Positions 12,871 to 44,430 of a stretch of DNA of 64,000 nt are shown here, piece after piece. The position numbers were made by a program, and so were the translations under genes. This DNA is from Sphingobium xenophagum NBRC 107872 (GTDB lineage Bacteria; Pseudomonadota; Alphaproteobacteria; Sphingomonadales; Sphingomonadaceae): contig NZ_BARE01000006.1 of the NCBI RefSeq assembly GCF_000367345.1, forward strand, positions 124,001 through 188,000. Reading direction: 5' to 3'. A model generated the notes under the pieces. It did no database searches. It was not told the DNA's origin and saw only the letters and a list, made by a program, of their open reading frames with translations. Every line of letters starts with the position of its first letter. The stretch's first letter is position 1.

Positions 12871-12890
12871 GAACAATCGAGTGGGAATGA
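12871..12890 (+). repeat. attachment-site repeat, guaA 3' end copy (left)
   Basis: GAACAATCGAGTGGGAAT (12871-12888) is repeated exactly at 44411-44428. Read from 12873 it encodes Thr-Ile-Glu-Trp-Glu and a TGA stop, the conserved end of GMP synthase (GuaA). There is no guaA reading frame upstream, so this is an att core left by integration and not the gene itself. Confidence 0.8.
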
Positions 12891-12893
12891 TTT

Positions 12894-12914
12894 TGGCCCC
12901 TCCAAAGGGGGCTA
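12894..12914. terminator. GC-rich hairpin between att site and first island gene
   Basis: GGCCCCT (12895-12901) pairs with the AGGGGGC stretch around 12906-12912 across a short CCAA loop. It lies just downstream of the leftward MDR reductase gene. There is no clear U-tract on that strand, so termination strength is doubtful. Confidence 0.4.
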
Positions 12915-12919
12915 AACAC

Positions 12920-13936
12920 CTAGATTCGGACGATCAGTGTTCCGGCATTTCGTCCCTGGAAGATATCGACGAAGGCGTCGGGTATATGATGGAACCCGTC
13001 CCGCATATCATAACGATTGCGTAGGCGCCCTTCTGCCTCCCACTGGCGTATGGCGGCTATCGCCGACGCATATTCGTCAGCATAGTCGCCAACGACAAAG
13101 CCCTGCATCCTGATCCGTCCATAGACCAGCTTCATCATATCTCTGGGGCCAGCCGCCAGGCTGTTCGAATCATAAGCGGACAATTGTCCGCACAGCACGA
13201 CGCGGCCATGTGGCGCCATCCTGTCGATAGCGGCCTGCATCACGTCCCCGCCTACATTATCGAAAAAGATGTTTACGCCGACAGGCGTGGCGTCCTTCAA
13301 AGCCGCTGAAAAGTCCGTCGAGCGATAGTCGATCGCGATGTCTGCGCCGACTTCCTCTTCCAGCCAGCGACATTTCTCCGGACCTCCGGCAACTGCAATG
13401 ACCCGGCAGCCTGCGATGCGAGCCATCTGGCACACCATCGCACCGACCGACCCGGCCGCACCGGACACAAGGACGGTCATGCCGGGCTTTGGCTCTCCCA
13501 CCGAAAAAAGACCGAAATAGGCGGTCAGGCTGTTCGGCGAATATAGTGTCATGGCGTCGACCGGGTCCATCCACGCCTGGATAGGCGTGACCGGGACGAC
13601 TGCCGCATCGGGGCGTAGGACTGCATAATCCTGCCAGGGCGCCACGGCCGTGGCGCATTGTCCGGCTTCAAACCGCGCATGACGCGACGCCAGCACTTCA
13701 ACCGCTGCCATGCCCCGGATCGGTTCGCCGATGCCGATCGCACCGCGATAGCTGCGTTCGGGCGAATTCAACCAGTTGCGGATCGTGGGGGCGCAGGAAA
13801 TGATCCGCGTACGGACAAGAATCTCTCCCTCGTCCAGCCTGGGCGCTTCAAATGCCTCCTCATGATAGGCAAAATCGTCCGTCTGCACCGCACCTTCGGG
13901 CCTGCGCGCCAATAGCCAGGAGCGATTGAGGCTCAT
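12920..13936 (-). CDS. MDR-superfamily NADP-dependent oxidoreductase
   Basis: A 338-residue zinc-free medium-chain reductase/dehydrogenase of the leukotriene B4 dehydrogenase / curcumin reductase branch. The N-terminal GroES-like domain has APTIRNWLNSPERSYRG near 50-65. The Rossmann domain carries SGAAGSVGAMVCQMARIAGC at 158-177 for NADP binding. Such enzymes reduce the double bond of alpha,beta-unsaturated carbonyl compounds, so here it may saturate an enone or enoyl intermediate. It overlaps the FadJ-like gene by four bases and is the last gene of the leftward operon that starts with the CMD gene at 20197. Confidence 0.85.
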   Translation of the reverse strand: MSLNRSWLLARRPEGAVQTDDFAYHEEAFEAPRLDEGEILVRTRIISCAPTIRNWLNSPERSYRGAIGIGEPIRGMAAVEVLASRHARFEAGQCATAVAPWQDYAVLRPDAAVVPVTPIQAWMDPVDAMTLYSPNSLTAYFGLFSVGEPKPGMTVLVSGAAGSVGAMVCQMARIAGCRVIAVAGGPEKCRWLEEEVGADIAIDYRSTDFSAALKDATPVGVNIFFDNVGGDVMQAAIDRMAPHGRVVLCGQLSAYDSNSLAAGPRDMMKLVYGRIRMQGFVVGDYADEYASAIAAIRQWEAEGRLRNRYDMRDGFHHIPDAFVDIFQGRNAGTLIVRI

Positions 13937-16002
13937 GACCGGTCGCCGAACCGTTTGCCCCCCTCCGCCAGTCGCACGAGCAGCGGAGCCGGGCGGAAGG
14001 TTTCGCCATGCAGCGCCTTAAGCCGACGCATGTCCGCCACGATCTTGCCCAACCCGACCTGATCGGCCCAGAAGAGCGGCCCGCCGCGATAGACCGGCCA
14101 ATTATAGCCGAGCACCGCTGCTATATCGATGTCGGATGCCCGCAGCGCGATGCCTTCTTCCAATATTCTCGCACCCTCGTTGACGACCGGATAGAGCAGG
14201 CGCGCCAGAATGGCCCCATCCCCCACCGTTGGGCTATGCGCAACGGATCCTGCCGCCGCAACTTGGCTGATCAAGGTTGCGGTCAGGTCTGACGCATGGG
14301 GGCGCCGCTTCTCATCATAATCATAGTAGCCCGCACCGCGCTTCTGGCCCAGCCGACCGGCGGCGACCAGATCGCCCATGACGGTGCGTTCGGTCGCGTT
14401 CCGGCCAATAACATCGAGCCCCACCAGATCCATCATCTGGAAATGCCCCATGGCGAAGCCATAATCGACCAACACGCGGTCGATCGCTTCAATGGGCGTG
14501 CCTTCCAGCATCATCGCTTCGGCTTGTGTCCCGCGGGGCGCGAGCAACCGGTTTGCGATGAAACCGTCACACACGCCGCTGAGCACGGCGACCTTGCCGA
14601 TCCGCTTGGCGAGCCGCATCGCCGTCGCAATCACGGGCTTTGCGGTGGCGGCGCCGCGCACGACTTCCAGCAGGCGCATGACATTGGCGGGCGAGAAGAA
14701 ATGGAGCCCCACGACCCATTCGGGCCTACTGGTCGCTGCCGCGATGCGATCTAGATTGAGGAAGGATGTGTTGGACGCCAGGATCGCACCCGGTTTGGCA
14801 ATCCGGTCGAGCCGCGCGAAAATATCGGTCTTGACGTCCATGCTCTCATAGACGGCTTCGATAACAAGGTCGGCATGGGCAAGCGCGCCAAGCTCCAGGC
14901 TGGGCGAAATCAGCGCCATGCGCTGCTCGACCTGCTGGCCGGTCATTCGCCCCTTGCTGGCGGTTGCCTCATAGTTGCGGCGGATCGTGGCGATCCCGCG
15001 ATCCAGCGCCTCCTGGCTGGTTTCGACCAGCGTCACCGGGATGCCGGCATTCAGGAAATTCATCGTGATGCCGCCGCCCATGGTGCCTGCGCCGATAACG
15101 CCAACCGCCGCTATATCGATCGCCGCCGTCTCCGGCCCGATGTCCGGCACCCGTGCCGCCTCCCGCTCGGCGAAGAAGACATGGCGCTGGGCGGCGGATT
15201 CGGGGCTGGCGACCAGCTGCTCGAACAAGGCCGCTTCTTTTTCCAGGCCATCATCGAAATCAAGCATCACCGCCGCCTGCACGGCCTCTATGATCGCGCC
15301 AGGCGCGGGAAAACCCTTGAACCGGCGTGCGTTCGTCGTTCCAAAAGTCGTGAAGAGGTCCGGGGCGTTCCGGTCGCCTTCGATGGCATCGGTCCGATCT
15401 CTGATCCGCGGTTTCGCCGCGCCATCCGCCACCACGCGCCGGGCAAAGGCCAGCGCTTCGGATTGAAGCGATGGATCATGGGCGATCGCGTCCACCAGAC
15501 CGAGCGACAGCGCCTCTTTCGCCTTGATCTGGCGACCCGATGTGACGATGTCCAACGCGGCCTTAGCACCGACGACCCTTGGCACGCGCTGGGTTCCGCC
15601 TGCGCCGGGAAGCAGGCCAAGATTGACTTCGGGCAGGCCTACGCGCGCACTTGCTGCGACGACGCGATAGTGGCAGGCGAGCGCCAGTTCAAAACCTCCG
15701 CCCAGCGCAGTGCCGTGAATGGCGGCAACGACAGGCTTGGGCGCGGCGTCGAGCATGGCACACAGGTCCGGTAAGGACGGCGACTGCCAGGGTTGGCCGA
15801 ATTCGGTGATGTCCGCGCCGGCGATGAAGGTGCGCCCCGCGCATATCAGCACGATCGCATGCACCTGATCATCGCGGAACGCCCGATCGAGTTCAGACTG
15901 CAATGCTTGCCGCAGGGGAGCTGACAAGGCGTTCACCGGCGGATTGTCCAGCGTGATGAGCGCAATGCCGTCCGTGACGACGCTGCTGGCGGTCTGGTTC
16001 AT
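13933..16002 (-). CDS. Bifunctional enoyl-CoA hydratase / 3-hydroxyacyl-CoA dehydrogenase (FadJ/FadB type)
   Basis: A 689-residue fusion. The crotonase domain (1-190) has GRTFIAGADITEFG and GTALGGGFELALACHYRV, which form the CoA and oxyanion sites. The NAD-binding domain begins at VGVIGAGTMGGGI near 299, and the catalytic His is in LHFFSPANVMRLLEVV near 432. Two 3HCDH C-terminal repeats follow. The protein should hydrate an enoyl-CoA and oxidise the 3-hydroxyacyl-CoA to the 3-keto form. I start at ATG 16002, where similarity to the family begins; a longer frame upstream lies inside the ligase gene. The ligase stop lies one base upstream. Confidence 0.92.
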   Translation of the reverse strand: MNQTASSVVTDGIALITLDNPPVNALSAPLRQALQSELDRAFRDDQVHAIVLICAGRTFIAGADITEFGQPWQSPSLPDLCAMLDAAPKPVVAAIHGTALGGGFELALACHYRVVAASARVGLPEVNLGLLPGAGGTQRVPRVVGAKAALDIVTSGRQIKAKEALSLGLVDAIAHDPSLQSEALAFARRVVADGAAKPRIRDRTDAIEGDRNAPDLFTTFGTTNARRFKGFPAPGAIIEAVQAAVMLDFDDGLEKEAALFEQLVASPESAAQRHVFFAEREAARVPDIGPETAAIDIAAVGVIGAGTMGGGITMNFLNAGIPVTLVETSQEALDRGIATIRRNYEATASKGRMTGQQVEQRMALISPSLELGALAHADLVIEAVYESMDVKTDIFARLDRIAKPGAILASNTSFLNLDRIAAATSRPEWVVGLHFFSPANVMRLLEVVRGAATAKPVIATAMRLAKRIGKVAVLSGVCDGFIANRLLAPRGTQAEAMMLEGTPIEAIDRVLVDYGFAMGHFQMMDLVGLDVIGRNATERTVMGDLVAAGRLGQKRGAGYYDYDEKRRPHASDLTATLISQVAAAGSVAHSPTVGDGAILARLLYPVVNEGARILEEGIALRASDIDIAAVLGYNWPVYRGGPLFWADQVGLGKIVADMRRLKALHGETFRPAPLLVRLAEGGKRFGDRS

Positions 16003-16003
16003 G

Positions 16004-17545
16004 TCATGCGTCCTGTGTGGCGGGTGGTGCGGCGCGCCTGCGGGCGACCTCTTCCACGGCAATGGCGGCCATCGCCTTCTTGTCGAGCTTGCCGGTGGCG
16101 GTCACCGCCATTTCCTCGACCAGCACCAGATGTTCAGGCCATTTCTTGCGGGAAAGGCCTTGCTGCGAAAGATGGTCCAGCAGTGCAGGCAGGTCCATGC
16201 CGCTGCCTTGTGCCCTGAGGCGGCAGACCGCGCAGGCCTGCTCGCCCAGCTTGCGTTCGGGCACCGCGACCACCGCGACCTCGGCAATGGCGGGGTGTCG
16301 CAACAGCGCAGCCTCCACCTCGGCAGGGTCGATATTGAAGCCGCCCCGGATGATCTGGTCCTTGATCCGGCCGACCACCCGGACGAACCCTTCTTCATCA
16401 CGGATGATTTCGTCCCCGGTCAGGTAGAAGCCATCCGGCGTCATGCGCTCCTGCCCGGCGCCCAAGCCCTGCGCATAGCCCAGGAAAAGGGATGGCCCGC
16501 GGACGCCTGCCTGCCCCCGGCTGCCCCTAGGCAGCGCTTTCATATCGGGATCGAATGCCTCTTCCTGCGTATCGGGAAAGGGGATGCCGTCAAAAAGCTG
16601 GCGGCGCTCCAGCGGGTCCGTGGGGCTGGTCGAGGCATGGCCCATGCATTCCGACATGCCGAACATGCGCAGCGCCTTGAGCCCCAGCAATCGGTCGGCG
16701 TCAGCGATCAGTTCCGGAGTCATGGCGCTGCCCCCCACAGCCATGGCGCGGAGGGGAAGGCGACCGCTCCATTCGCCGAGGCGGGCTGCTTCCACCATCG
16801 TGAACAGGTGGGTCGGGACGGCAATGGCCCAGCCACATCCGTAGCGTTCGGCTCGCCGAAGTGCTTCGGCTGGCACCCATGGGTCCACCAGCACGAGCGG
16901 ATGTCCCAAAGACAGCGCGAAATGGGCCGTGAAAGTGAAGCCGGGGGCGCTGTCGAGCGGGACAATGCCCAATATCGCGTCGCGCGGATCAAGGCCGGCT
17001 ATGGCCGCACAGGCGCGGGTTGCATAGTTGAGCGCTTCCGGGCCGTGCATCACGCCCTTGGGAACGCCGGTGCTGCCGGAGGTGAAGCCGATGAGTGCGG
17101 CATCGGCGTCGCGCGGATCACGCGACCGTGTGCCTGTCCCGGCAGTAACTTCGGGCAAGGTGTCGTCGGCGCCGCTTACCTTCGCAGCATGACCGAGCAA
17201 GGGTTCGAGCACGGCAAGATCGCCCGCGCCGAGCTTTGGCGATACCGGGCAAAATGTGGCGCACAGCGATGATACGGCAAGCGCCGTGGCAATCGTCGCC
17301 GGGCTCTTGTGCCCGGTCACGAGGACGCGGTCGCCCGGCTCTACCCCCACAGACCTGAGCCGCGCCGCAATGTCGACCGCTTGCGCGCGCAATTCGGCCC
17401 GGCTCCATAAACGGTCGTTGCAATCGGCCAGCGCGAGCGCGTCCGGTTCAGCGTCGGCAAGGCGCGCGAACTGCGGCCAGAGCCGCTCGGCGTTCCATTG
17501 AAACGTCGGATGGCGTTGTTCTTCAGGCAAGGGATTGCCCTCCAT
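16004..17545 (-). CDS. AMP-forming acyl-CoA ligase
   Basis: A 513-residue adenylate-forming enzyme that would activate a carboxylic acid with ATP and CoA, the entry step of the pathway. The phosphate-binding motif GFTSGSTGVPKGVMH is near residue 155. The adenylation motif is MFGMSECMGHAS, the hinge region is YLTGDE then GRIKDQIIRGGFNIDPAEVE, and the catalytic lysine is in ATGKLDKKAM at the C-terminus. The start is uncertain. ATG 17545 overlaps the upstream SDR by 23 bases, while a TTG at 17530 has GGAGGG seven bases before it. The acid substrate cannot be read from sequence. Confidence 0.88.
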   Translation of the reverse strand: MEGNPLPEEQRHPTFQWNAERLWPQFARLADAEPDALALADCNDRLWSRAELRAQAVDIAARLRSVGVEPGDRVLVTGHKSPATIATALAVSSLCATFCPVSPKLGAGDLAVLEPLLGHAAKVSGADDTLPEVTAGTGTRSRDPRDADAALIGFTSGSTGVPKGVMHGPEALNYATRACAAIAGLDPRDAILGIVPLDSAPGFTFTAHFALSLGHPLVLVDPWVPAEALRRAERYGCGWAIAVPTHLFTMVEAARLGEWSGRLPLRAMAVGGSAMTPELIADADRLLGLKALRMFGMSECMGHASTSPTDPLERRQLFDGIPFPDTQEEAFDPDMKALPRGSRGQAGVRGPSLFLGYAQGLGAGQERMTPDGFYLTGDEIIRDEEGFVRVVGRIKDQIIRGGFNIDPAEVEAALLRHPAIAEVAVVAVPERKLGEQACAVCRLRAQGSGMDLPALLDHLSQQGLSRKKWPEHLVLVEEMAVTATGKLDKKAMAAIAVEEVARRRAAPPATQDA

Positions 17546-18317
17546 CAACGAGGAAGGTTTGACCAGTGATGAAGCTGCCCGCATCGGACGCCAGCAGCGC
17601 CAGCGTGCCAGCCACTTCGTCGGGGCGGCCAAAGCGGCGCATCAATATGCCAGCCCGCGTTTTTTCCTGAATGGCGGGGTCCAGCGTTTCCGTCATGCCC
17701 GTTTCGATCGATCCGGGGGCGATGGCATTCACCCGAATATTGTGCCCGGCCCATTGAGCGGCCAGGTCGCTGGTCAGGTGAACGATCGCCGCCTTGCTGG
17801 TGGTGTAGGGGACGACCTGTCCCGCGTCCGGCTGATAAGACAGGAAGGCGCCAACCGATGCGATATTGACGATCGCCCCGCCGCCCTGGGCGATCATGTG
17901 GCGCGCAGCATGACGGCAGGCCAGGAAGGTGCCGGTCACGTTGACATCCATCACCTTTTGCCAGCCCTTGAGCGGAATGTCCTGCGGCAGACCCCACCAG
18001 GATGCGCCGGCATTGTTGATGAGGATGTCGAGCCCCCCCAATCGCTCTACCGTTCGGGCGATTGTGGCCTCGACGGACGCTTCGTCGGCGATATTGCAAG
18101 CCAGGCCTGCGGCTGGCACTCCGAAGCGATCCGCTATCCCTGCCGCCAGATCGGCGCAATCCGCCTCCGTCCGTGATGCCAGCGCGACGGCGCAGCCCAG
18201 ATCGGCCAGTGTCGCGGCCATCGCTTCGGCGAGCGCCCCGCGTCCACCGGTGATGAGCGCACGTTTGCCGTCGAGACGGAACTGAGCGGCGGCGAAGCCG
18301 GGTTTCCAGTCAGTCAT
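17523..18317 (-). CDS. SDR family oxidoreductase with altered glycine motif
   Basis: A 264-residue short-chain dehydrogenase. The catalytic set is present: NNAG, the Ser in NIASVGAF, and YTTSK. The C-terminus FITGQTFLVDGGQSLA is classical. The N-terminal cofactor loop reads TGGRGALAEA, with Ala at two of the positions that are normally Gly in TGxxxGxG, so cofactor affinity may differ. The ATG at 18317 has an ideal GGAGGTGATC ribosome site and overlaps the end of the EthD gene by eight bases. It probably oxidises or reduces a hydroxy/keto intermediate in the CoA pathway. Confidence 0.88.
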   Translation of the reverse strand: MTDWKPGFAAAQFRLDGKRALITGGRGALAEAMAATLADLGCAVALASRTEADCADLAAGIADRFGVPAAGLACNIADEASVEATIARTVERLGGLDILINNAGASWWGLPQDIPLKGWQKVMDVNVTGTFLACRHAARHMIAQGGGAIVNIASVGAFLSYQPDAGQVVPYTTSKAAIVHLTSDLAAQWAGHNIRVNAIAPGSIETGMTETLDPAIQEKTRAGILMRRFGRPDEVAGTLALLASDAGSFITGQTFLVDGGQSLA

Positions 18318-18648
18318 GATCACCTCCGGCAAGCAGATCGATTTCGTCGGTGATCAGGATGATCCGCCGACCGCCCATGCCCCTGGTCTGCGCTGTCGCC
18401 GCTTTCCATTCGGGCGAGGCAAAGGCGATGTCCAGCGCCGCCTGGTCAGCGAATGTCAGCACGGCATGGCCGTCCCAGCCCGGCGCTTCCGGACTGTCAT
18501 AATCCTTTGTCACCGCCCCATGCCGATAGGCGATAAGGCCGGGCAGAACCCTGGCGGCGTCGGCGTGCGGCCCACGCCACCAGGTGGTGAACTGTTCGTG
18601 AGTCCAGTCCTGCGGCCGGCTGGCCAGGACGACCATGCTGACCGCCAT
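18310..18648 (-). CDS. EthD domain-containing protein
   Basis: A 112-residue dimeric alpha/beta-barrel protein of the EthD/REDY family. The start MAVSMVVLASRPQDWTHEQF and WWRGPHADAARVLPGLIAYR match the conserved region (a W-x-G-PHA motif). The family includes small enzymes that act on methylketone, ether or polyketide-like substrates, though many members have no known role. It sits between the enoyl-CoA hydratase and SDR genes, with a 3-base gap upstream and an 8-base overlap downstream, so it belongs to the catabolic operon. Confidence 0.8.
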   Translation of the reverse strand: MAVSMVVLASRPQDWTHEQFTTWWRGPHADAARVLPGLIAYRHGAVTKDYDSPEAPGWDGHAVLTFADQAALDIAFASPEWKAATAQTRGMGGRRIILITDEIDLLAGGDHD

Positions 18649-18651
18649 GGC

Positions 18652-19449
18652 TTATTTGCCCGTCCAGACCGGCTGGCGCTTTTCGAGGAACGCCGCGACG
18701 CCTTCCTTCGCATCGGCCGAATGGTGCACCACGTTGCAGGTCATGGTTTCCAGCGTGATGAGCGAGTTGGTGTCGGCGTCCATACCGCGGTTCACCGCCA
18801 TCTTGGTCATCCACATGCAGAAGGGGCTCTTGTCGATCAGCGGAGCGCAGAAATCCTGGATCAGCTGCTCAAGCTGATCGCTGGGCGCGGACGCATTGCA
18901 CAGGCCCCATTCGACGCATTCCTTGCCCGAAAGCAGCTTGCCCGTCAGCATCAGTTCCTTCGACTTGCGCATGCCGATGTAGCGCGGCAGGCGATAGATC
19001 GGGCCGGCGCCGCCGAACAGTGCGCGGCGGATGTGGAAGTCGCCGATCTTGGCGTCGTCGGCGGCGATGCCGAAATCGCACGAGATGAACAGCTCGAAGC
19101 CCCCGGCGACCGCATAGCCTTCGACGCAGGCGATGGTCGGCTTCTTCATGTTGTAGATCTTGTCGTAGGTGCGCGCCGAGTCGATCGCGAGCTGAAGCGA
19201 CGTGCTGGTTTCGTGCAGCACCGGACCGACCAGCTGACCGAGGTCGGCACCCGCGCAGAAGGTGTTGCCGCGACCGCGGAATACGACGGCCAGGACCGAA
19301 TTATCCTCTGCCGCCTTGTCCACCGCCGTTTCAAGGTCGCGCAGAAGCTGCGGGCTCACGCAATTCTTCACATGGGGGCGATTGAGCCAGATCGTGCAGA
19401 TGCCGTTATCGGCCACTTCATATTGGATGACGTCCTTTTCCGGTTCCAT
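18652..19449 (-). CDS. Enoyl-CoA hydratase/isomerase family protein
   Basis: A 265-residue crotonase. The oxyanion-hole motifs are FRGRGNTFCAGADLGQL near 65 and EGYAVAGGFELFISCDFGIA near 110. The active-site region RALFGGAGPIYRLPRYIG lacks the usual Glu of true hydratases at the second acid position, so it may be an isomerase, a hydrolase or a ring-acting crotonase. The ATG at 19449 has AAGGAG upstream. It is the second gene in the leftward operon, between the CMD gene and the EthD gene. Confidence 0.85.
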   Translation of the reverse strand: MEPEKDVIQYEVADNGICTIWLNRPHVKNCVSPQLLRDLETAVDKAAEDNSVLAVVFRGRGNTFCAGADLGQLVGPVLHETSTSLQLAIDSARTYDKIYNMKKPTIACVEGYAVAGGFELFISCDFGIAADDAKIGDFHIRRALFGGAGPIYRLPRYIGMRKSKELMLTGKLLSGKECVEWGLCNASAPSDQLEQLIQDFCAPLIDKSPFCMWMTKMAVNRGMDADTNSLITLETMTCNVVHHSADAKEGVAAFLEKRQPVWTGK

Positions 19450-19489
19450 GTAACTTCTCCTTGGCAAAGATGTAAAAAGACTGGTTGTT

Positions 19490-20197
19490 TCAACGTGCTA
19501 TGCCGCCCTCTTCCGGCGGGGCGAGCATGCCCCCCACCGCCATCCACGCAGCAATTCCCGCAGATGGGACGGCACAAAGCACCGCCTCGGCAATTTCCTC
19601 GTCGCTGGCGCCCGCATTGCGCGCGCCGCGCACATGGGTTGCCGCCATCGGACTGTATCCGGCCGCAAGAATGGTGAGCAAAAGCAGCTCGCCATATTTG
19701 GCGGACAATGGGTTGGCGTCGATGCTGCCCCGCCGCATCAGGTAATAGGCGTCCGCCGCTTCGGGCACGAGCCGCATCAGGGCGCCCAATGGCGCTGGAA
19801 TAGCGCCTGCCCAATAGGCGCGGAAATTCGCCTCTGCCTCTCCATGGCCAGCCTTTGGCAATGGTTGCGGCTGCGGAGCCTGCACATCGTCAAAGCTGTC
19901 ACTGATGATCTGTGCGAAATCGAGTGCCGCCGCTTCGCCGCGAAGGCTGGAGAGCACGATCAGCCCGGCGGTCGCGTCCTTCGCGGTCAGGCCGAGTGCG
20001 ACGCCCCGTTCCATTTCCTGCCGGGCAAGGGTGAGGTGGCGGCGATCGATCGCAGCCACGGTCGCGAACAGCGCTTTCAGTTTCGCGGGAACCGCGCCAT
20101 CCGACTCGATGACCGACCGGAAACTGGCATAGCCAGCCAGCGTGTAGGGCGCATAGCCCCGCAGCAGGGCGACATCCATCAATGGGCTATTCGTCAT
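19490..20197 (-). CDS. Carboxymuconolactone decarboxylase (CMD/AhpD-fold) family protein, paralogue 1
   Basis: A 235-residue all-helical protein of the CMD superfamily, longer than a single CMD unit and probably a tandem fold. The first half carries [26 protein letters not shown]. The second half has [31 protein letters not shown] with the usual [19 protein letters not shown] helix. No AhpD CxxC motif is visible, so it is not a peroxidase. A paralogue with the same motifs lies at 36695-37384, also as first gene at a divergent promoter. The ATG at 20197 has GGAG eight bases upstream. The role may be decarboxylation or lactone chemistry. Confidence 0.8.
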
Positions 20198-20225
20198 CGC
20201 ATGCTCTCCTGCCATCCAAATGATC

Positions 20226-20237
20226 GACCGACTGGTC
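20226..20237. promoter_or_regulatory. GACC-N4-GGTC operator A
   Basis: GACCGACTGGTC in the divergent promoter between the CMD gene (minus) and the acyl-CoA dehydrogenase (plus). It is one of seven such palindromes in the island and the proposed binding site of the TetR-family regulator encoded at 35094-35711. Confidence 0.65.
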
Positions 20238-20279
20238 GGGCGTCAACCGAAAATTTCTCTCCTGACCAGTTTGACAGCC

Positions 20280-20291
20280 GACCAGTCGGTC
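20280..20291. promoter_or_regulatory. GACC-N4-GGTC operator B
   Basis: GACCAGTCGGTC in the same divergent promoter. It lies 54 bp from site A and 27 bp from site C, close to whole helical turns for A (about five). Confidence 0.65.
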
Positions 20292-20306
20292 GACTATTTA
20301 TTTCTC

Positions 20307-20318
20307 GACCGATCGGTC
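20307..20318. promoter_or_regulatory. GACC-N4-GGTC operator C (perfect palindrome)
   Basis: GACCGATCGGTC is a perfect 12-bp palindrome, 63 bp before the GTG start of the acyl-CoA dehydrogenase gene. Confidence 0.7.
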
Positions 20319-20380
20319 GGGTGAGTCCTAAAGAAAGGGGCGAGCCGGCTCGAATCCGGCGGTATATCTGGAGTGGATGC

Positions 20381-22698: not shown

Positions 22699-22762
22699 CC
22701 GTGTGATGGGGCAACAAGAAATATCTGGGCGCAAGACAAAATAGCTCAAATCTGAGGGAGAG

Positions 22763-32655: not shown

Positions 32656-32659
32656 CGCT

Positions 32660-35091: not shown

Positions 35092-35093
35092 GG

Positions 35094-35711: not shown

Positions 35712-35859
35712 TGTCGGCTTTGTTCCCTATGTCTGCGCCGGTCAGCCTGGCCGACGCCTTTCGTTCTGGCCATTGGATAGCCCGAACGGTCGCCGGATCA
35801 CAATCGATGATGACCCAACTGACCGAGCGGATGCATCCCACCTCTCCAAAAGGTAAGTC

Positions 35860-35871
35860 GACCGTCTGGTC
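35860..35871. promoter_or_regulatory. GACC-N4-GGTC operator E
   Basis: GACCGTCTGGTC lies 58 bp before the SDR start codon and about 150 bp from the TetR start, in the divergent promoter between them. It would allow autoregulation of the regulator. Confidence 0.65.
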
Positions 35872-35928
35872 GGTTCGTTCTAGGGATGACGGCTGGATCA
35901 CAGGATTGCAAGCATAAGGACGCGAACA

Positions 35929-36681: not shown

Positions 36682-36694
36682 ACGGGGGCGTCTT

Positions 36695-37384
36695 TCAGGC
36701 GTCCATGGCTGTCGCGCCGATCACCCAAGCGGAGAGGCCGGCGGTCGGCACAGCGCAGATCACGGCTTCCGCTACCGCCTCCTCGCTGGCGCCTGCGGTG
36801 CGCGCGCCTTTCATGTGCACGGACGCCCACGAACTATAGTCGGCGACAAGCACGGTGACGAGCAGCAACTCGGCGTAAATCGGCCCCAGCGCGGTGCCTG
36901 ATAACGTGCCCTCGCGCATCAGATAATATGCGTCGGCACCCAGCGGCTTGACCTCCAACAGCTTGGCCAAGGATGGCGGCATCGTGCCGAAATATTGAAG
37001 GAAGTTGGCCTCTGCTGCGCCCTCTTCCACGATCATGTCGTCGTCGGGCCAATCGGGATCTGCGGCTCCGGAATATATCTCGCAAAAAAGAGCATGGAAA
37101 CGCAACGACGCGCCCTCACCGCGCACGCTAGCCAGGATCGCGATCGCCGCACCGGCTTCCGCCTCGGTCAGCCCGGCCGCCTGCGCTGCCGCCAATTCCC
37201 GCGCTGCAAGCTCCCCATAGCCTTTCACCGTGGCTGCGCAGGCCACGAACAATCGTTTCACCTTTGCTGGAACGGCGCCATCGCTATCAATGATGGAGCG
37301 CCAGCGACGGAAGCCCGCGACCGTTTTCGGCGCGTCGCGACGCAGGCGGCCCAGACTGGCGAGGGTGGGTAGATGATCAGACAT
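36695..37384 (-). CDS. Carboxymuconolactone decarboxylase (CMD/AhpD-fold) family protein, paralogue 2
   Basis: A 229-residue relative of the CMD protein at 19490-20197. Both share the [23 protein letters not shown] stretch, the LTEAEAGAAIAILASVRGEG-type helix, and YAELLLVTVLVADYSSWASV followed by GARTAGASEEAVAEAVICAV. No CxxC redox motif is present. ATG 37384 is preferred because GGAGAG lies just upstream; the longer frame extends through operator F. The two paralogues at separate promoters may act on successive or related intermediates. Confidence 0.8.
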   Translation of the reverse strand: MSDHLPTLASLGRLRRDAPKTVAGFRRWRSIIDSDGAVPAKVKRLFVACAATVKGYGELAARELAAAQAAGLTEAEAGAAIAILASVRGEGASLRFHALFCEIYSGAADPDWPDDDMIVEEGAAEANFLQYFGTMPPSLAKLLEVKPLGADAYYLMREGTLSGTALGPIYAELLLVTVLVADYSSWASVHMKGARTAGASEEAVAEAVICAVPTAGLSAWVIGATAMDA

Positions 37385-37404
37385 CGTCTCTCCGATAAAA
37401 TACA

Positions 37405-37416
37405 GACCGTCCGGTC
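37405..37416. promoter_or_regulatory. GACC-N4-GGTC operator F
   Basis: GACCGTCCGGTC lies 20 bp upstream of the CMD paralogue 2 start, on the minus-strand side of the divergent promoter. Confidence 0.68.
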
Positions 37417-37478
37417 GGTTGAACATGGCTATGCCGCTTCGTGCGCGGGGTCAACTGTCCCATAGGTGGTTGACGTCC

Positions 37479-37490
37479 GACCGGACGGTC
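37479..37490. promoter_or_regulatory. GACC-N4-GGTC operator G
   Basis: GACCGGACGGTC lies 63 bp before the SDR start at 37554, the same distance as operator C has from its gene. Sites F and G are 74 bp apart, one for each direction of transcription. Confidence 0.68.
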
Positions 37491-37553
37491 GACTACATCG
37501 CACCCTATAACGGGCCGATCCAATTCGGCCGACATGAGAGGAGTACGCTCCCG

Positions 37554-38441
37554 ATGAAAGACTTCAAGGGCCGGACGGCAGTCATTACCGGCGCGGGCAG
37601 CGGCATCGGCGCGGCGCTCGCGCATGTCGCCGCGCAAGAGGGCATGAACCTGGTCCTTGCCGACATCAATCTTGCCGACCTTGAAGCGGTAGCAGCGACC
37701 ATCGACTGTTCGGCAATCATGCTCCAAAGGACCGATGTGGCCGACCCGGAGGCGGTCCAGGCTCTTGCCGACAGCGCTTGGTCCCGTTTTGGTGAGGTAT
37801 CCTTGCTGTGCAACAATGCCGGCGTCGTGCCTGGGGGGCGTCACCGGCCCGTCTGGGAATATGCGCTGGAGGATTGGCGCTGGGCTTTTGGCGTGAACGT
37901 GGATGGCGTAATTAACGGCATCCGCAGCTTCGTGCCCAGGATGCTGGCAGAGGGACGGTCGGGGCATATCTTGAATACCGCATCCGTCGCCGGGTTCGTG
38001 AGTGGCGAAGGCTCGGCTGTCTATGGCGCGTCAAAACATGCTGCCGTGCGCGTTACCGAAGCCCTGTATGCCGGTCTGCGTGCGCGCAATGCTCCGATCG
38101 GTGTCACTATGCTATGTCCTGGTCTGGTCGCGACGCGCATTTACGAGGCCGAGCGATCACGGCCCGCCCATTTGCGATCAGCCCTTGGGCGCCCTGTGGA
38201 AGCGCCCGAATTTCAGTCTATTTCCGACAAGCTGTTCCAGAACGCGCCGTCTCCGGAACAGGTCGCCGCGGAGGCATTTGACGGTATCCGCAAGGATCAG
38301 TTCTACGTCTTCACCTCCGCGCGGTACGACGGGGCGATCGCACAAAGGACGCAAGCCATTTTGAACCGGGAAAATCCCCAGTTCGACAGTTTGATCTCAC
38401 TCAGCGAAGGCAAGGCTGATCTGGATAAGGAAAAATTATGA
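37554..38441 (+). CDS. SDR family oxidoreductase, long form
   Basis: A 295-residue SDR with a longer C-terminus than the classical type. The cofactor motif TGAGSGIGAA is near 12, NNAGVVPGG near 85, NTASVAGFVSGEGSAVYGAS holds the Ser/Tyr region, followed by K. The C-terminal extension (about 50 residues) is charged. The ATG at 37554 has AGGAG upstream. It is the first gene of a six-gene rightward operon whose genes mostly overlap by ATGA. Confidence 0.88.
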   Translation: MKDFKGRTAVITGAGSGIGAALAHVAAQEGMNLVLADINLADLEAVAATIDCSAIMLQRTDVADPEAVQALADSAWSRFGEVSLLCNNAGVVPGGRHRPVWEYALEDWRWAFGVNVDGVINGIRSFVPRMLAEGRSGHILNTASVAGFVSGEGSAVYGASKHAAVRVTEALYAGLRARNAPIGVTMLCPGLVATRIYEAERSRPAHLRSALGRPVEAPEFQSISDKLFQNAPSPEQVAAEAFDGIRKDQFYVFTSARYDGAIAQRTQAILNRENPQFDSLISLSEGKADLDKEKL

Positions 38442-39190
38442 GCAGGCTGGACTCGCGGATCGCGCTGATTACCGGCGCCGCCTCTGGCATCGGGCTCGCT
38501 ACGGCCCGGCGTTTTGCGGAGGAGGGCGCGAAAGTCGTGTTGGCGGACCGCAACGGCGACGCCTTGTCGACGGCTTGCGCATCGCTGCGCGGTGACGGGC
38601 ATGATATGGCGACGATGGACGTAACCGACGAGCAGGCATGGGCGGCGCTTGCCGATAGGATCGGCGCACGGTTCGGGAAACTAGACATTCTGGTGAACAA
38701 CGCCGGGTTCGGCAAATTCGCGTCCATTGCCGACACGACTTTGGCGCAGTGGCGGTCGATCCTGGCCGTCAATCTGGACAGCGTGTTCCTGGGGACAAAA
38801 TATATGCTGCCTTTGCTCGCTGCCTCCGGTCATGGCGCGATCGTAAACATGTCCTCGATTCGCGGTATCGTGGCCGGCGCCGGCACCGGTTCCTACAGTG
38901 CCGCGAAGGGGGGCGTTCGTATGTTCACCAAGGCGACCGCGATTGAATGCGCGGAGGCCGGCAATGGGGTACGCGCCAATTCCATTCATCCCGGCCACAT
39001 CGCCACGCCCCTGACCGCGCCGGCCTATGCCGATGCGGAGATCGCCAAGACCCTGCTGGCGGACGTCCCGATTGGCCGGATCGGGCAGGCGGAGGAGATC
39101 GCGGACGGGATCCTTTTCCTGGCAAGCGATGAATCCCGTTACATGACGGGCGCCGAACTGGTGATCGATGGGGGGAGCACCGCACAATGA
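38438..39190 (+). CDS. SDR family oxidoreductase
   Basis: A 250-residue classical SDR: TGAASGIGLATARRF near 12, NNAGFGKF near 87, catalytic Ser in NMSSIRGIVAGAGTGSYSAA with Tyr and then Lys, and the C-terminal YMTGAELVIDGGSTAQ. It overlaps the preceding SDR and the following acyl-CoA dehydrogenase by four bases on each side. Two consecutive SDRs next to an ACAD suggest oxidation of secondary alcohols at two positions or both stereoisomers. Confidence 0.9.
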   Translation: MSRLDSRIALITGAASGIGLATARRFAEEGAKVVLADRNGDALSTACASLRGDGHDMATMDVTDEQAWAALADRIGARFGKLDILVNNAGFGKFASIADTTLAQWRSILAVNLDSVFLGTKYMLPLLAASGHGAIVNMSSIRGIVAGAGTGSYSAAKGGVRMFTKATAIECAEAGNGVRANSIHPGHIATPLTAPAYADAEIAKTLLADVPIGRIGQAEEIADGILFLASDESRYMTGAELVIDGGSTAQ

Positions 39191-40347
39191 CCGATCGAGC
39201 CATGGCCATCGCAACGAAGGTGGAAGCCTTCGTCCGCAATGAAGTAATCCCCTATGAAAAGGACAGTCGGCTGGGTTTCCATGGCCCGGAGGATGCACTG
39301 GTCAGGGAGTTGCGCGCAAAGGCGCACATGGCGGGCGTTCTCACGCCGCATATCCTGCAAGACGGGTCGCATCTGACGCAGCGGGAGACAGCCATCGTCC
39401 TCATAAAGACGGGGCTGTCGCCTCTCGGTCCGCTCGCGTGCAACACGGCCGCGCCTGACGAGGGCAACATGTATTTGCTGGGTAAGGTCGGGAGCGCGGA
39501 ACAGAAATCGCGCTTTCTTGAACCATTGGTGAGTGGCGAAGCGCGATCGGCCTTCTTCATGACGGAGCCTGCCGAAACCGGGGGGGCAGGGTCCGACCCG
39601 TCGATGATGCAGACGACCTGCCGTCTGGATGGCAATCACTGGGTGATCAACGGCCGCAAGAAATTCATCACCGGCGCGGATGGTGCGCGCGTGGGCATCG
39701 TCATGGCCCGATCCGACGATGGCGCATGCATGTTCCTGGTCGACTTGCCCGACCCTGCCATCCGAACAGTGCGCGTGATCGATACGATCGACAGTTCAAT
39801 GCCCGGCGGGCATGCGGAAGTCGACATTGTGGACCTGCGCGTGTCGGCGGACCAGATGCTGGGCGCGAGCGGTGAAGGCTTTGCCTATGCGCAAATCCGC
39901 CTCAGCCCCGCCAGGCTGTCTCATTGCATGCGCTGGCTCGGGCTTGCGATGCGCGCGCACGAAATCGCGACGGACTATGCCTGCCGTCGCCATGCCTTTG
40001 GCAAGCCGCTCGTCGATCATGAAGGCGTCGGCTTCATGCTGGCGGACAATCTCATTGATCTGAAGCAGGCGGAACTGATGATCGACTGGTGCGCGGGCGT
40101 GCTCGACACCGGATCGCTCGGCACCGCCGAAAGCTCGATGGCCAAGGTCGCCGTGTCGGACGCGCTGTTCCGTGTCGCTGACCGATGCGTTCAGGTGATG
40201 GGCGGAACAGGCGTGTCTGGCGACACTATTGTCGAGCAGGCGTTCCGGGAAATCCGTGCCTTTCGTATCTATGATGGTCCAACCGAGGTCCACAAATGGA
40301 GCCTCGCCAAAAAGATAAAGCGGGACTGGAAGGGGGGGCAGGCATGA
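39187..40347 (+). CDS. Acyl-CoA dehydrogenase, ACAD10/11-like branch
   Basis: A 386-residue ACAD with FFMTEPAETGGAGSDPSMMQ in the flavin loop, FGKPLVDHEGVGFMLADNLI, and the C-terminal QVMGGTGVSGDTIVEQAFRE then IYDGPTEVHKWSLAKKI. The DGPTEVH tail again resembles the ACAD10/11 branch. An APH kinase gene lies two genes downstream (41780), so this looks like a second dehydrogenase-kinase pair of the island. Overlaps by ATGA on both sides. Confidence 0.88.
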   Translation: MTDRAMAIATKVEAFVRNEVIPYEKDSRLGFHGPEDALVRELRAKAHMAGVLTPHILQDGSHLTQRETAIVLIKTGLSPLGPLACNTAAPDEGNMYLLGKVGSAEQKSRFLEPLVSGEARSAFFMTEPAETGGAGSDPSMMQTTCRLDGNHWVINGRKKFITGADGARVGIVMARSDDGACMFLVDLPDPAIRTVRVIDTIDSSMPGGHAEVDIVDLRVSADQMLGASGEGFAYAQIRLSPARLSHCMRWLGLAMRAHEIATDYACRRHAFGKPLVDHEGVGFMLADNLIDLKQAELMIDWCAGVLDTGSLGTAESSMAKVAVSDALFRVADRCVQVMGGTGVSGDTIVEQAFREIRAFRIYDGPTEVHKWSLAKKIKRDWKGGQA

Positions 40348-41783
40348 TCGCCGGACGATATGCGCGCGCCGCGAAATCGCTGCTGTTGCTCCTGCCACTC
40401 CTGGCATCGACGTCGCTACATGGTCAGGCTGGGAATTTTGCCGCACCCGAAGCCCCCGCCACGCAATCCGGCTATGGCGAGGATCTGCTGCCAAGGGACG
40501 AGAAGGACCGCGCCGCCCTGCTTCACACCATCGCGTTCGATGCGACCGTCTATGGCATGTCGGCTTATCTGCATTATGAGCAGCTTTATCGGCAGGTGTT
40601 CGATCGCAGTTCGGACAACTACACCGGCTTCAACCGCTTCGCCCATGATCGCAACCTTGCCGGGCCTGACTATGCCACGTTCAAGGTTCCCAACACCGAT
40701 ACGCTCTATTCGACCGCATGGATCGACCTCAGCAAGGGGCCGGTCGAAATCGATATTCCGGCGACGCAGCTCAAATATTTCACGCTCAACATCTTCGACA
40801 TCTTCGGTAATCCCAGCAATCTGAGCAACCGGACGATCGGATTTGAAGGCGGTCGTTTTCTGCTGGTCCCGCGTGACTGGAGTGGAACCCCGCCCGAAGG
40901 CGTGCGCATATATCGGGCGGCCACGCCCCAGCTCTGGATACTCATGCGCGCCTTCGCCCAGTCCGACAGCGATGTGCAGAAGGCGCGGGCCTTTCAGGAC
41001 GCGGTCAGGATTATTGGTCCGCATGGCGTTGGAATGGCGAACGAATCCGGCATTCCAGCCCCGCCGCCGCCTGCGCCGGGGGCCATCGGCTATCTTCGCG
41101 TTCTCGACTATGTTCTTCGGGCCGATGGCTGGCAGCCGGGTGAGGACGCGCTGGTATCGCGCTTCCGGCCGATCGGCATATTGGGTGACAAGGGGTTTGA
41201 TCCCGCCGCGCTGAGCCCTTCGGCGCGGGCGGCGATTGAAAGCGGTTATACAGAGGCGCTGGCCATGCTTACCCGTGCCAAGTCGCAATTGGGCGAACCC
41301 ACCGGCACTGGTTGGATGAAGGTCAACAAGGGCGTCTATGGATTCAACTATGTCCGCCGGTCCGTCATCAATATCGCGGGGCTGGGCGCGAATGTGCGCG
41401 AAGAAAATGCCTCCTACACGACTTTCGTCGATGGTAAGGGCGCGGTGCTGGATGGCGCGTCGTCCCGCTACACGCTCCGGCTGCAAACACCGCCACCCGT
41501 CAACAGCTTCTGGTCCGTCACGCTATACGACGCAAAGACATTCGCTCTCTATCCCAATCCTTTGAACCGCTATTTGGTAAGCGATCGGACCAAGGGGTTG
41601 AAGGTGCAGAAGGATGGATCGATCGACATCCGGATTCAGCACAAAGCCCCTGTCGGCGGGAACTGGCTTCCCGCTCCGGCCGGGCCGTTTTTCGTCGTCA
41701 TTCGCGCCTATGGACCAAAACCGGAAATGCTCGACGGCCATTGGTTGCCGCCGGCCATTGCGCAGGAGCAGGGCGAGCGATGA
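40344..41783 (+). CDS. Exported DUF1254/DUF1214 protein, paralogue 2
   Basis: A 479-residue protein with a clear signal peptide (MIAGRYARAAKSLLLLLPLL, cleavage near LHGQA). The DUF1254 region has FKVPNTDTLYSTAWIDLSKG, and the DUF1214 region has NSFWSVTLYDAKTFALYPNP and NWLPAPAGPFFVVIRAYGPK. ATG 40344 overlaps the ACAD stop; the longer frame lies inside the ACAD gene. An exported protein inside a tight cytoplasmic CoA operon is unusual. It suggests that an early step, or binding of the substrate, happens in the periplasm. Confidence 0.85.
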   Translation: MIAGRYARAAKSLLLLLPLLASTSLHGQAGNFAAPEAPATQSGYGEDLLPRDEKDRAALLHTIAFDATVYGMSAYLHYEQLYRQVFDRSSDNYTGFNRFAHDRNLAGPDYATFKVPNTDTLYSTAWIDLSKGPVEIDIPATQLKYFTLNIFDIFGNPSNLSNRTIGFEGGRFLLVPRDWSGTPPEGVRIYRAATPQLWILMRAFAQSDSDVQKARAFQDAVRIIGPHGVGMANESGIPAPPPPAPGAIGYLRVLDYVLRADGWQPGEDALVSRFRPIGILGDKGFDPAALSPSARAAIESGYTEALAMLTRAKSQLGEPTGTGWMKVNKGVYGFNYVRRSVINIAGLGANVREENASYTTFVDGKGAVLDGASSRYTLRLQTPPPVNSFWSVTLYDAKTFALYPNPLNRYLVSDRTKGLKVQKDGSIDIRIQHKAPVGGNWLPAPAGPFFVVIRAYGPKPEMLDGHWLPPAIAQEQGER

Positions 41784-42850
41784 GCGCTTTGGTCGATGCC
41801 AATAGCGGCACCGCCGCCGTTCGCCCTGGTTACGAACTGGACCTAGGCGCGCTGGACCTGTGGATGCGCGCCAATGTTGCCGATTATGCGGGACCGCTCG
41901 GCTTAGAGCAGTTCAAGGGTGGCCAGTCCAATCCGACCTACAAGCTGATCACGCCCGGCAAGACCTATGTTTTGCGCAAGCAGCCGCCCGGCCCCTTGCT
42001 CAAGGGCGCCCATGCGCTCGATCGGGAAGCACGCGTGCTGACCGGCCTTGCACACGCCGGTTTCCCGGTCGCCACCGTCCATGGCCTGTGCAGCGATCCA
42101 GCCATTATCGGCACCATATTCTATGTCATGGACATGGTGGAAGGGCGCATCTTCTGGGACGCAGCGGTTCCGGGCATATCAACCGCTGAACGATCCGCGC
42201 TGTTCGATGCGATGAACGCGACGATCGCAGATCTTCATAGTATCGACCATGTCGCAGCCGGGCTGGCGGACTATGGCCGGCCCGGCAATTATTTCGAACG
42301 GCAGATCGCGCGCTGGTCCCGCCAATATGCCGAAGATGCAGAGGCAGGCCGTGATCCCTATATGGACCGTCTTGTGGAATGGCTCCCCCTCCATATCCCG
42401 CCGGGTGAAGAAACGAGCATCGTCCATGGCGACTTTCGCATCGATAATCTGATCTTCCACCCAACGCAGCCGCGCGTGCTGGCGGTGCTCGACTGGGAGC
42501 TTTCCACCCTGGGGCATCCGGGCGCCGACTTCGCCTATCATGCGATGATGTACCGCATGCCACCCCATATCGTCGCGGGGCTTGGCGGGCAGGACCCGGC
42601 CGCACTCGGTATCGCCGATGAAGAGGCCTATCTCGCCGCCTATTGTCGGCGCAGGGGACTAGCGGACATGCCGGGGTACGACTTTTACATGGCTTTCAAT
42701 TTCTTTCGGCTCGCGGCGATTTTTCATGGCATCAAGGGCAGGGTGATCCGCGGCAATGCCTCCTCCGCGCAGGCCCGTGAGCGCGTTGCGGTGCTGCCGG
42801 AACTTATGCGCCTTGCGTGGCAGCAGGCGGAAAAAGCAGGTGCCCGATGA
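41780..42850 (+). CDS. APH-family phosphotransferase, ACAD10/11- or LvaA-like acyl-CoA kinase
   Basis: A 356-residue kinase-fold protein like the one at 21616-22698. It has FKGGQSNPTYKL, VLRKQPPGPLLKGAHALDRE, HGDFRIDN with catalytic Asp218 and Asn223, and [14 protein letters not shown] with metal Asp238. It is expected to phosphorylate a hydroxyl on an acyl-CoA, which the ACAD10/11-like dehydrogenase at 39187 could then eliminate. ATG 41780 overlaps the DUF1254 stop and the downstream crotonase start overlaps its own stop. Confidence 0.85.
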   Translation: MSALVDANSGTAAVRPGYELDLGALDLWMRANVADYAGPLGLEQFKGGQSNPTYKLITPGKTYVLRKQPPGPLLKGAHALDREARVLTGLAHAGFPVATVHGLCSDPAIIGTIFYVMDMVEGRIFWDAAVPGISTAERSALFDAMNATIADLHSIDHVAAGLADYGRPGNYFERQIARWSRQYAEDAEAGRDPYMDRLVEWLPLHIPPGEETSIVHGDFRIDNLIFHPTQPRVLAVLDWELSTLGHPGADFAYHAMMYRMPPHIVAGLGGQDPAALGIADEEAYLAAYCRRRGLADMPGYDFYMAFNFFRLAAIFHGIKGRVIRGNASSAQARERVAVLPELMRLAWQQAEKAGAR

Positions 42851-43629
42851 GCAGTCCGGCCATCACGCTCAACGTCCAGGACAGCGTCGCATGGCTGACG
42901 CTGGCGCGGCCGGACAAGCGCAATTCGGTCGATCCCGCATTCGCATTGCGTCTCCATGAACTGGCGGAGCGATGCGCGGCAGACCCTGCGATACGATGTG
43001 TCGTCCTTACCGGAAGCGGCAAATTTTTTTGCGTCGGTGGCGACATTGACGCCTTCTCTGCAGCTGGCGACGATGCCGAAGCGGCGGTTGGCGCTCTCGC
43101 GCGGAGTTTCCACGCCGGCATCTATCGGCTTGCCACGATGGAAAAGCCTCTGGTCACGGCGATCAATGGGCCTGCCGCCGGCGCGGGGCTAAGTCTTGCC
43201 ATCATGGGGGATATCGCACTTGCTGCCGATTCTGCCCATTTTACTTCGGCCTACAGCGCTGTTGGACTGACGCCGGACGGCGGCGCATCATGGTGGCTGC
43301 CACAGCTTATCGGCATGCGGCGGGCGCAGGAGATGCTGTTCACCAATCGACGGATCGGTGCGGAGGAAGCGGTATCCATCGGCCTTGTTACGCGCGTGGT
43401 CCCTGACGATGCACTGCATGTCGAAGCGTCCGCGGTTGCGACGGCGCTGGCAAAGGGGCCAGTCCGCGCCCTGGCCCGATGCCGCGCCTTGCTGATGGAA
43501 TCGGCGAACGCTGGCTTGCACGACCAACTGGATCGCGAGGCCGCCTCGATCGCTAAGTCCGCCGGTGCAGTCGAAGGCCGGGAAGGCGTCGCCGCATTCC
43601 TGGCGAAGCGATCACCCCATTTTGTCTAG
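42847..43629 (+). CDS. Enoyl-CoA hydratase/isomerase family protein
   Basis: A 260-residue crotonase. The oxyanion-hole regions are LTGSGKFFCVGGDIDAFSAA near 55-75 and INGPAAGAGLSLAIMGDIAL near 108. The active-site segment AYSAVGLTPDGGASWWLPQL has Asp at the position of the second catalytic acid, as in the PaaG-like isomerases. It may therefore move or hydrate a double bond. It is the last gene of the six-gene rightward operon; only IS debris follows. Confidence 0.88.
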   Translation: MSSPAITLNVQDSVAWLTLARPDKRNSVDPAFALRLHELAERCAADPAIRCVVLTGSGKFFCVGGDIDAFSAAGDDAEAAVGALARSFHAGIYRLATMEKPLVTAINGPAAGAGLSLAIMGDIALAADSAHFTSAYSAVGLTPDGGASWWLPQLIGMRRAQEMLFTNRRIGAEEAVSIGLVTRVVPDDALHVEASAVATALAKGPVRALARCRALLMESANAGLHDQLDREAASIAKSAGAVEGREGVAAFLAKRSPHFV

Positions 43630-43814
43630 TTGCGTGTTGATGGGCAAAGCACGTCATAATTCCGATGAGCATTGTATCTGGTTCGACAGGTCTGCGCACT
43701 TGTCTTGAGGCCTAAGCAACTCAACTTTCCACCCAATCCGGATGACGGGACCGTTCCACCATTCGTCGGGCATCTGATTCGTATTTATGTCGAACTCGAC
43801 ATGCTCAGGACAGT
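43630..43814. other. Non-coding debris right of the last catabolic gene
   Basis: There is no gene with a start and ribosome site. On the minus strand a short open stretch reads EFDINTNQMPDEWWNGPVIR and then GWKVELLRPQD. This looks protein-like and may be a fragment of a lost gene joined to the truncated IS. I could not assign a family. Confidence 0.35.
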
Positions 43815-44070
43815 TTTGAGATAGGTCGCGTTGATCATCACCGTCCTGCGTTCGGAAGCCTGAGGCGCTTCCAGACCTTCCATCATCCGAAGGAAACCCA
43901 CCGCTTCCAGCGATTGTAAAGCGTCTTGTGCGGCCGGTCGTCCTTCGGTGCATCCCTCCAGCGCAACCCATTCCGGTTGACGAAATTGATTCCGCTCAAC
44001 ACCCGGCGATCGTCAACACGCAGTTTGCCATGGCTTTCGGGGCGTCCGTCAGCCAATGCAGGTTGCTCAT
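43815..44070 (-). pseudogene. IS5-family transposase remnant
   Basis: The minus strand begins MSNLHWLTDAP at 44070, then shifts frame into SHGKLRVDDRRVLSGINFVN and DAPKDDRPHKTLYNRWKRW, then shifts again into RMMEGLEAPQASERRTVMIN followed by ATYLK. These are the N-terminal third of an IS5-family transposase with at least two frameshifts and a small internal deletion. The DDE catalytic core is missing. A GGGTCCTGAC motif near 44121 may be the old terminal repeat. It is inactive and lies between the last catabolic gene and the right att repeat. Confidence 0.8.
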
Positions 44071-44410
44071 CTTCAATCTCCTCGCGAAGCCTGAATCAGA
44101 TCGAGCCAGTCATATCAATGGGTCCTGACCGCTAGTCAGATGCTCTCAAAATGGTGCTATCAAGCGCGAACGAATATCAGGGTCGCTTAACCGGCCCGCT
44201 AGCGCTCGCGATATTTTTCGCCGCAATCGGGGGTCAACCGTCAGGGCTGGAATGGATCAGGACCGGACGATATTAGCCGATAGATGGTTTGCGGATGTCT
44301 TTGAAAGTAACTCAGCGATATCAACAGCATAGCATTGCTACGGACTCCAGGTCGGCACCATTTGGGGAAAGATATTCTCCACAATGAATTCAATATCTTG
44401 ATATGCTCCC
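44071..44410. other. Intergenic island end; no gene seen
   Basis: This AT-richer stretch runs from the IS remnant to the right guaA-tail repeat. It contains the possible IS terminal repeat near 44121-44141 (CTGAC-cgcta-GTCAG dyad). No open frame, RNA or operator of the island type was seen. Confidence 0.45.
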
Positions 44411-44430
44411 GAACAATCGAGTGGGAATAA
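44411..44430 (+). repeat. attachment-site repeat, guaA 3' end copy (right)
   Basis: GAACAATCGAGTGGGAAT at 44411-44428 is the exact second copy of the repeat at 12871. It again encodes TIEWE, here followed by TAA. It marks the right junction with the conserved chromosome: the next gene, 55 bases on, is a housekeeping-type aminotransferase. Confidence 0.8.

Follow-up and report, generated by a model that had tools for sequence, protein, structure and literature searches.

The DNA analysed here, a 64-kb window that corresponds to C133:124001-188000 of the genome, poses the question of what kind of element is formed by a block of catabolic genes lying between two copies of a short repeat, and of how that block might move. 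Exact copies of the 18-bp repeat, GAACAATCGAGTGGGAAT, stand at 12871-12888 and 44411-44428. The window has no others at up to three mismatches, where 0.03 would be expected from 100 shuffles. Both copies read ACA ATC GAG TGG GAA plus a stop codon (TGA at the first, TAA at the second), thus TIEWE-stop without a guaA frame. A first-pass annotation of the window had described both the exact repeat and this detached protein end, and the window and genome searches, together with a reading of the two copies, bear it out; the end coordinate that it gave for the island, 44430, lies 2 bp beyond the end of the repeat at 44428.

Searching the whole genome (4,486,420 bases in 138 contigs) for the repeat at up to two mismatches, we found three copies, all on C133 and on the same strand, beginning at 67700 (two mismatches), 136871, and 168411. 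The first of these, C133:67700-67717, lies 69 kb left of 12871 and is the 3' end of an intact guaA, the single match above the family cut-offs (C133:66184-67716, ending GCACGATCGAGTGGGAAT|GA, with a protein that ends ...PPGTIEWE-stop). The intact gene that the first-pass annotation had expected to the left of the window is therefore present, with 16 of the 18 bases of the repeat at its end; the repeat is not scattered many times through the chromosome, and guaA does not lie elsewhere with another 3' end, both of which the same annotation had raised as objections to its own reading. A stretch of 13 bp, ATCGAGTGGGAAT, is common to all three sites and corresponds to 12876-12888 in the middle one.

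Song et al. are said to have described guaA islands in 2012 (Comput Biol Chem 36:62), and the GMP synthase gene is reportedly an integration hotspot. Of 21 fetched loci whose integrases are 43-100% identical, 19 have the integrase downstream of guaA, 225-316 bp from its end, and the remaining two lie at contig edges; none of the nine fetched loci with integrases about 33% identical has guaA within 1.5 kb. Further members of the guaA clade outside the fetched integrase loci are a second copy in G013 and a fragment in G082. The empty site, where guaA leads directly to an aminotransferase gene (70-815 bp, no integrase between), was seen in 18 genomes of the genus, which is the arrangement that had been predicted for relatives without the island. 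At the cut-off, 64 of 94 genomes have the aminotransferase, and loci were obtained for 30, our own included. Among the 29 loci that belong to other genomes (L048-L076), guaA lies within 1.5 kb without an integrase in 16 and is not that near in 12, and an integrase remnant separates guaA from the aminotransferase in one (G063). Two more empty sites, in G009 and G041, came from loci of a 13-mer search, which matched 52 of 94 genomes and, being confined to exact matches, misses guaA ends that vary by one base (G023, G034, and G057 among them). With an integrase clade beside guaA and an unoccupied site in relatives, integration is guaA-specific.

Two of the other occupied loci show decay. At the G063 locus (L107; G063:C35, 169400-170568), two cores at guaA enclose a remnant of 1.16 kb in which about 150 integrase codons are left—a decayed element that has kept both ends. 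In G013, a second left end and a partial guaA-type integrase lie 43 kb behind the first (L113; G013:C1, approximately 1809360-1810313); the core of this second copy is damaged (GAGAAGGGAAT) and its left end is of the same kind as the first, so that G013 too has a tandem remnant at guaA.

The right-hand copy of the repeat in the window (attR; 44411..44428, plus strand) is followed by native sequence, namely a guaA-aminotransferase spacer (44429..44473, plus strand), delimited by comparison with the empty site of G034, and the aminotransferase gene itself (44474..45679, plus strand, with a start at 44474 or 44486), the native right neighbour of guaA. The part picked as matching, 44457-44493, agrees with the G034 empty site at 36 of 37 bases, so the right repeat has element sequence on its left flank and native sequence on its right; the stretch 44429-44456 differs in length from G034, the spacer being shorter here, apparently with a shortened guaA terminator hairpin. 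Housekeeping sequence had been placed to the right of the island, and the native spacer and aminotransferase stand there from 44429 on, as in the 18 empty-site genomes.

Between guaA and the middle site lies a complete-looking ICE of 69.2 kb (G000:C133:67718-136870), which starts 56 kb left of the window. A P4-type tyrosine integrase, recognised by domain matches (Arm-DNA-bind_3, Phage_int_M, and Phage_integrase), is encoded about 290 bp after guaA at the far left of the ICE (L011:8007-9269), and an AlpA-type gene adjoins it (L011:9241-9519). The trb-type T4SS genes comprise VirB8, TrbL, CagX, TrbI, a TrbE/VirB4-like gene, and a T2SSE ATPase; they are joined by genes for a coupling protein, a DUF3363/relaxase protein, a lytic transglycosylase, an S26 peptidase, DUF2840 and DUF736 proteins, a strawberry-notch helicase, a Toprim protein, and a ParB-like protein. 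Integrase, relaxase, coupling protein, and T4SS thus lie between two att sites, as in an ICE. Its right-hand 12.9 kb fall within the window (1..12870; Pfam, PHROGs, and PADLOC matches) and contain the end of the strawberry-notch-type helicase gene and the ParB-like gene (3521-5614). Toward the right end, at 7195-12610, we also observed an AbiEi/AbiEii pair (9214-10949), further neighbours, and a VRR-NUC/TPR protein (10946-12610), and elsewhere in the ICE a TIR-domain protein resembling CAP12/Pycsar effectors (G000:C133:118978-119985; L013:18978-19985).

Related elements occur in other genomes: in G068, an integrase 98% identical is likewise encoded beside guaA, and most T4SS proteins are 88-98% identical (coupling protein, 67%), while in G070 a related 63-kb element lies between two core copies, with its transfer genes in reverse order relative to the integrase. 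The stretch of about 21 kb between integrase/AlpA and the T4SS region here (G000:C133:69519-90580; L011 and L012) encodes large surface-type proteins (SdrD_B, DUF11, CopC-like), a two-component system, and a GGDEF protein. The same interval spans about 4.4 kb in G068, and some 17 kb here therefore look like ICE cargo.

We then compared the sequences at the element ends. Left ends of this family mostly start with GATTTT or similar, and they carry CTGACGGTA-like repeats (up to one mismatch) at characteristic distances: an inverted one lies near +170 in 16 of 19 left ends, and direct ones lie near +193 (16 of 19), +265 (15), and +115 to +130 (11); these repeats are putative arm sites of the integrase. 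Immediately right of the middle att site (12871..12888, plus strand), a hairpin at 12889..12917 (plus strand) is identical to the G063 left end at 25 of 29 bases, and four mismatches to that sequence were counted both at 12889 and at the ICE left end, whereas the next four places ranked in 120 kb have 10-11 mismatches, two of them being the same hairpins on the other strand. About 31 bp of this left end are kept, after which comes the stop codon of the first catabolic gene.

The right ends that could be located and compared are those of the ICE, the island, G070, G063, G054, and G005. The ICE right end is non-coding (12611..12870, plus strand) and has motifs common to other guaA right ends, among them CCGATTGATGG (12715-12725) and TAAATATTTT, which begins 59 bp before the last base of the core. 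The island right end (44136..44410, plus strand) was assigned from motifs and matrix rank. It contains CCGATAGATGG at 44277-44287, which is exact also in G054, has one mismatch in the ICE right end, and is absent from G070, G063, and G005; it has AAGATATTCT in place of the AAAATATTTT of most other ends, and its AT-rich block is spaced from the core just as in other right ends. Some of those other ends have GACGG motifs near -92 and -234; the island right end has neither, and a single GACGG in the opposite orientation (ACCGTCA) lies there 191 bp before the core end. A matrix built without the core from the right ends of G070, G063, and G054 (G005, with an integrase 57% identical, was excluded from right-end matrices) placed the island right end second among 239,888 windows in 120 kb; the same matrix placed the ICE right end only 20th and had its top window at an unrelated place, so the rank of the island end counts as support, not proof. 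Compared directly outside the core, the ICE and island right ends scored 23, against a mean of 18.9 and a maximum of 30 in 50 shuffles, nothing above the shuffles, and the island right end shows its similarity only when it is set, at fixed distance, against the other ends as a group.

The island itself comprises 31.5 kb between 12871 and 44411 with genes for acyl-CoA catabolism, transport, and regulation, and the catabolic set that had been placed between the repeats is indeed there by Pfam as a cluster at 12920..43774, with syntenic copies in G020, G022, G037, and G088. It encodes an MDR reductase, a FadB-like ECH/HCDH protein, an AMP-ligase, SDRs, acyl-CoA dehydrogenases, thiolases, a ChsH2-type OB protein, a CMD protein, an APH-fold protein, and an enoyl-CoA hydratase, accompanied by a TonB receptor, an MFS transporter, LuxR and TetR regulators, and DUF1254/1214 proteins. 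ARAGORN called a tRNA-Asp at 29097-29195 (minus strand), between a DUF1254/1214 gene and an acyl-CoA dehydrogenase gene, which may be a false call. The large acyl-CoA dehydrogenase subunit has 4x28_A and 6wy8_B as its best solved relatives, and the small subunit matches isovaleryl-CoA dehydrogenase 4o5m best, with 6wy8_A third and 4x28_D lower; the only structure match of the OB protein is a weak one (9myr_B, E 0.00094), and for the second thiolase SCP2-type thiolases rank first, with 9myr_A further down. We take 4x28, 6wy8, and 9myr to be steroid side-chain enzymes, and our guess for the substrate of the cluster is a steroid-like acyl-CoA side chain.

A whole-genome search for Phage_integrase found none in the island, in line with the first-pass view that it has no integrase, and Pfam revealed no recombinase, relaxase, or T4SS gene among its 27 ORFs, 4 of which are without any match. 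Queried with 55 ICE proteins, the island gave no match at E 1e-3, whereas the integrase query did find the G063 remnant; by these queries the island holds no internal ICE remnant, and element ends are present.

The copies of the cluster in G020, G022, G037, and G088 are about 80-86% identical with the same gene order. The guaA site is unoccupied in G020 and G022, so in at least these two the cluster lies away from guaA; G088 has a guaA integrase on another contig. The four 40-kb cluster segments contain no match to proteins of this ICE at E 1e-20. On the left, similarity to G020, G022, and G088 extends to the stop codon of the first gene; past it, these three differ from the island and largely from each other. 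Similarity to G037 starts only at 13628. On the right, all four copies run on into a DUF2889 gene (intact in G020, 251 aa), of which the island keeps a 5' stump of about 23 codons (43705..43774, plus strand, TTG start read by eye), followed by an IS4/5-type transposase remnant (DUF4096; 43821..44135, minus strand, limits from the match to G037). Within the cluster, the DUF1254/DUF1214 gene at 27029-28524 is missing from the G020 copy, and the G022, G037, and G088 copies align over most or all of it. A plasmid location for the island was considered and rejected: 17 of 72,556 plasmid records match its first 24 kb in a megablast-type search, none covering 80%, and the best, a Novosphingobium resinovorum plasmid, is 35% covered at 78%.

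Taken together, these features very probably represent a tandem of two elements of the same integrase family at the 3' end of guaA, an ICE followed by an integrase-less island with the anatomy of a cis-mobilisable element. Right-end-type sequence to the left of the middle repeat and left-end-type sequence to its right make the middle site the fused ends of two elements; two sets of element ends, as read from the sequence, thus stand at one site, and one of the two elements has, and the other lacks, recognisable recombination and transfer genes. A CIME is flanked by att sites, lacks integrase and conjugation genes, derives from an ICE or IME by deletion, and is mobilised in cis after accretion (PMC5704250 and PMC7563491). 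By its anatomy the island is a CIME accreted to the ICE: it is flanked by the 18-bp repeats with element-type end sequence inside each (about 31 bp on the left), and it has no integrase or conjugation genes. Where the first-pass annotation saw element genes to the left and an island between the repeats, both stand, the former as a complete-looking ICE with its own guaA-type integrase; it missed that this ICE is itself bounded by the repeat, that there are three att copies and two elements in all, and that the left end of the island is almost wholly deleted.

On this tandem arrangement, the ICE would have accreted to an integrase-less element, its end restoring the last codons, stop, and hairpin behind guaA. 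Recombination between attL at guaA and attR at 44411 would then release ICE and island as one 100.7-kb circle, which could be transferred by the conjugation machinery of the ICE, and recombination between attL and the middle site would release the ICE circle alone. Excision of the island alone is expected to be weak or absent, because its left end is about 31 bp long and without putative arm-site repeats. Joint movement with the ICE thus appears likelier than independent movement, and the eroded left end argues for an island that either moves together with the ICE or stays put.

How far the island is still mobile is the point on which the most durable alternative differs. The tandem could be real but old, with the island fixed in the chromosome and an ICE that landed in front of it; the anatomy is the same as in the reading that we prefer, and the odds of the two overlap. 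A right end with an IS4/5-type remnant and a truncated DUF2889 gene, and a left end eroded to 31 bp, are what such a remnant would show, and on these grounds the island may be fixed in place; against it stand the persisting identity of both att copies over 18 bp and the intact integrase next to the island, 98% identical to that of G068. We regard immobility as possible yet doubtful. That the island moves by itself, its two sites (the middle site and attR) being served in trans by the integrase of the ICE, would suit the identical 18 bp at both sites, but no CTGACGGTA-like repeat at up to one mismatch was found within 320 bp right of the middle site, where 16 of 19 related left ends have one, and we consider this unlikely. 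A single ICE of 100.7 kb, with the catabolic cluster as ordinary cargo and the middle repeat incidental or a duplicated end, would account for one integrase and one transfer system over the whole stretch; cargo at ICE ends is commonplace, and none of the genomes compared has the island at guaA without the ICE. A cargo boundary needs neither a right-end-type sequence on its left nor a left-end-type sequence on its right, and with the two end types back to back at the middle site this explanation is decidedly unlikely. Finally, a repeat that owes nothing to site-specific recombination, arising by chance or by local duplication of the guaA tail, would be in keeping with a length of just 18 bp, but can be rejected almost outright given the shuffle expectation, the genome-wide copies, and flanks of which one side matches element ends and the other the empty site.

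The kind of arrangement of ICE and CIME that we propose is already known from other bacteria. In Streptococcus, an att-bounded element without integrase and transfer genes likewise forms a tandem with an ICE, inserted at a conserved gene's 3' end (reviewed in PMC5704250 and surveyed in PMC7563491), and the order is the same, with the ICE adjoining the target gene and the CIME distal ("CIME-ICE-target gene", Table 2 of PMC7563491). Compared with these, the Sphingobium island differs in phylum, in target gene, in size (31.5 kb versus 1.2-13 kb for the classical CIMEs surveyed in PMC7563491), and in having nearly a whole catabolic cluster as cargo. The ICE-like beta-myrcene locus of Pseudomonas sp. 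M1 has in common with ours, according to PMC10386936, the guaA site, an adjoining P4-type integrase, an AlpA regulator, Tra/Trb genes, and a catabolic cluster, but the 28 kb of catabolic genes there lie within one 76-kb element, whereas here they lie behind the ICE with an att pair of their own. The ssrA islands of Dehalococcoides also form tandems with direct repeats of the gene's 3' end between them, and 15 islands without an integration module were proposed to be possibly mobilisable in cis; they differ in their serine recombinase, in the ssrA target, and in having no conjugation system of their own (PMC3146451).

Our literature coverage, which was partial, yielded only a review on cis-mobilizable elements in Alphaproteobacteria and nothing on guaA genomic islands of Sphingobium. 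Sphingomonads are well known as degraders, and discussion of their catabolic genes usually centres on plasmids and IS-bound transposons. In the locus described here, nearly a whole cluster that is found elsewhere in related genomes has the ends of a guaA element and stands beside a possible conjugative carrier, and the interest of the case lies in the size of this cargo and in exact junctions that are testable by PCR. More tentatively, the guaA integrase family of Sphingobium might serve the exchange of catabolic genes, with ICEs parking in front of integrase-less elements that hold degradation clusters and carrying them as composites; if so, a cluster sited elsewhere in relatives would become conjugative through two retained end sequences alone.
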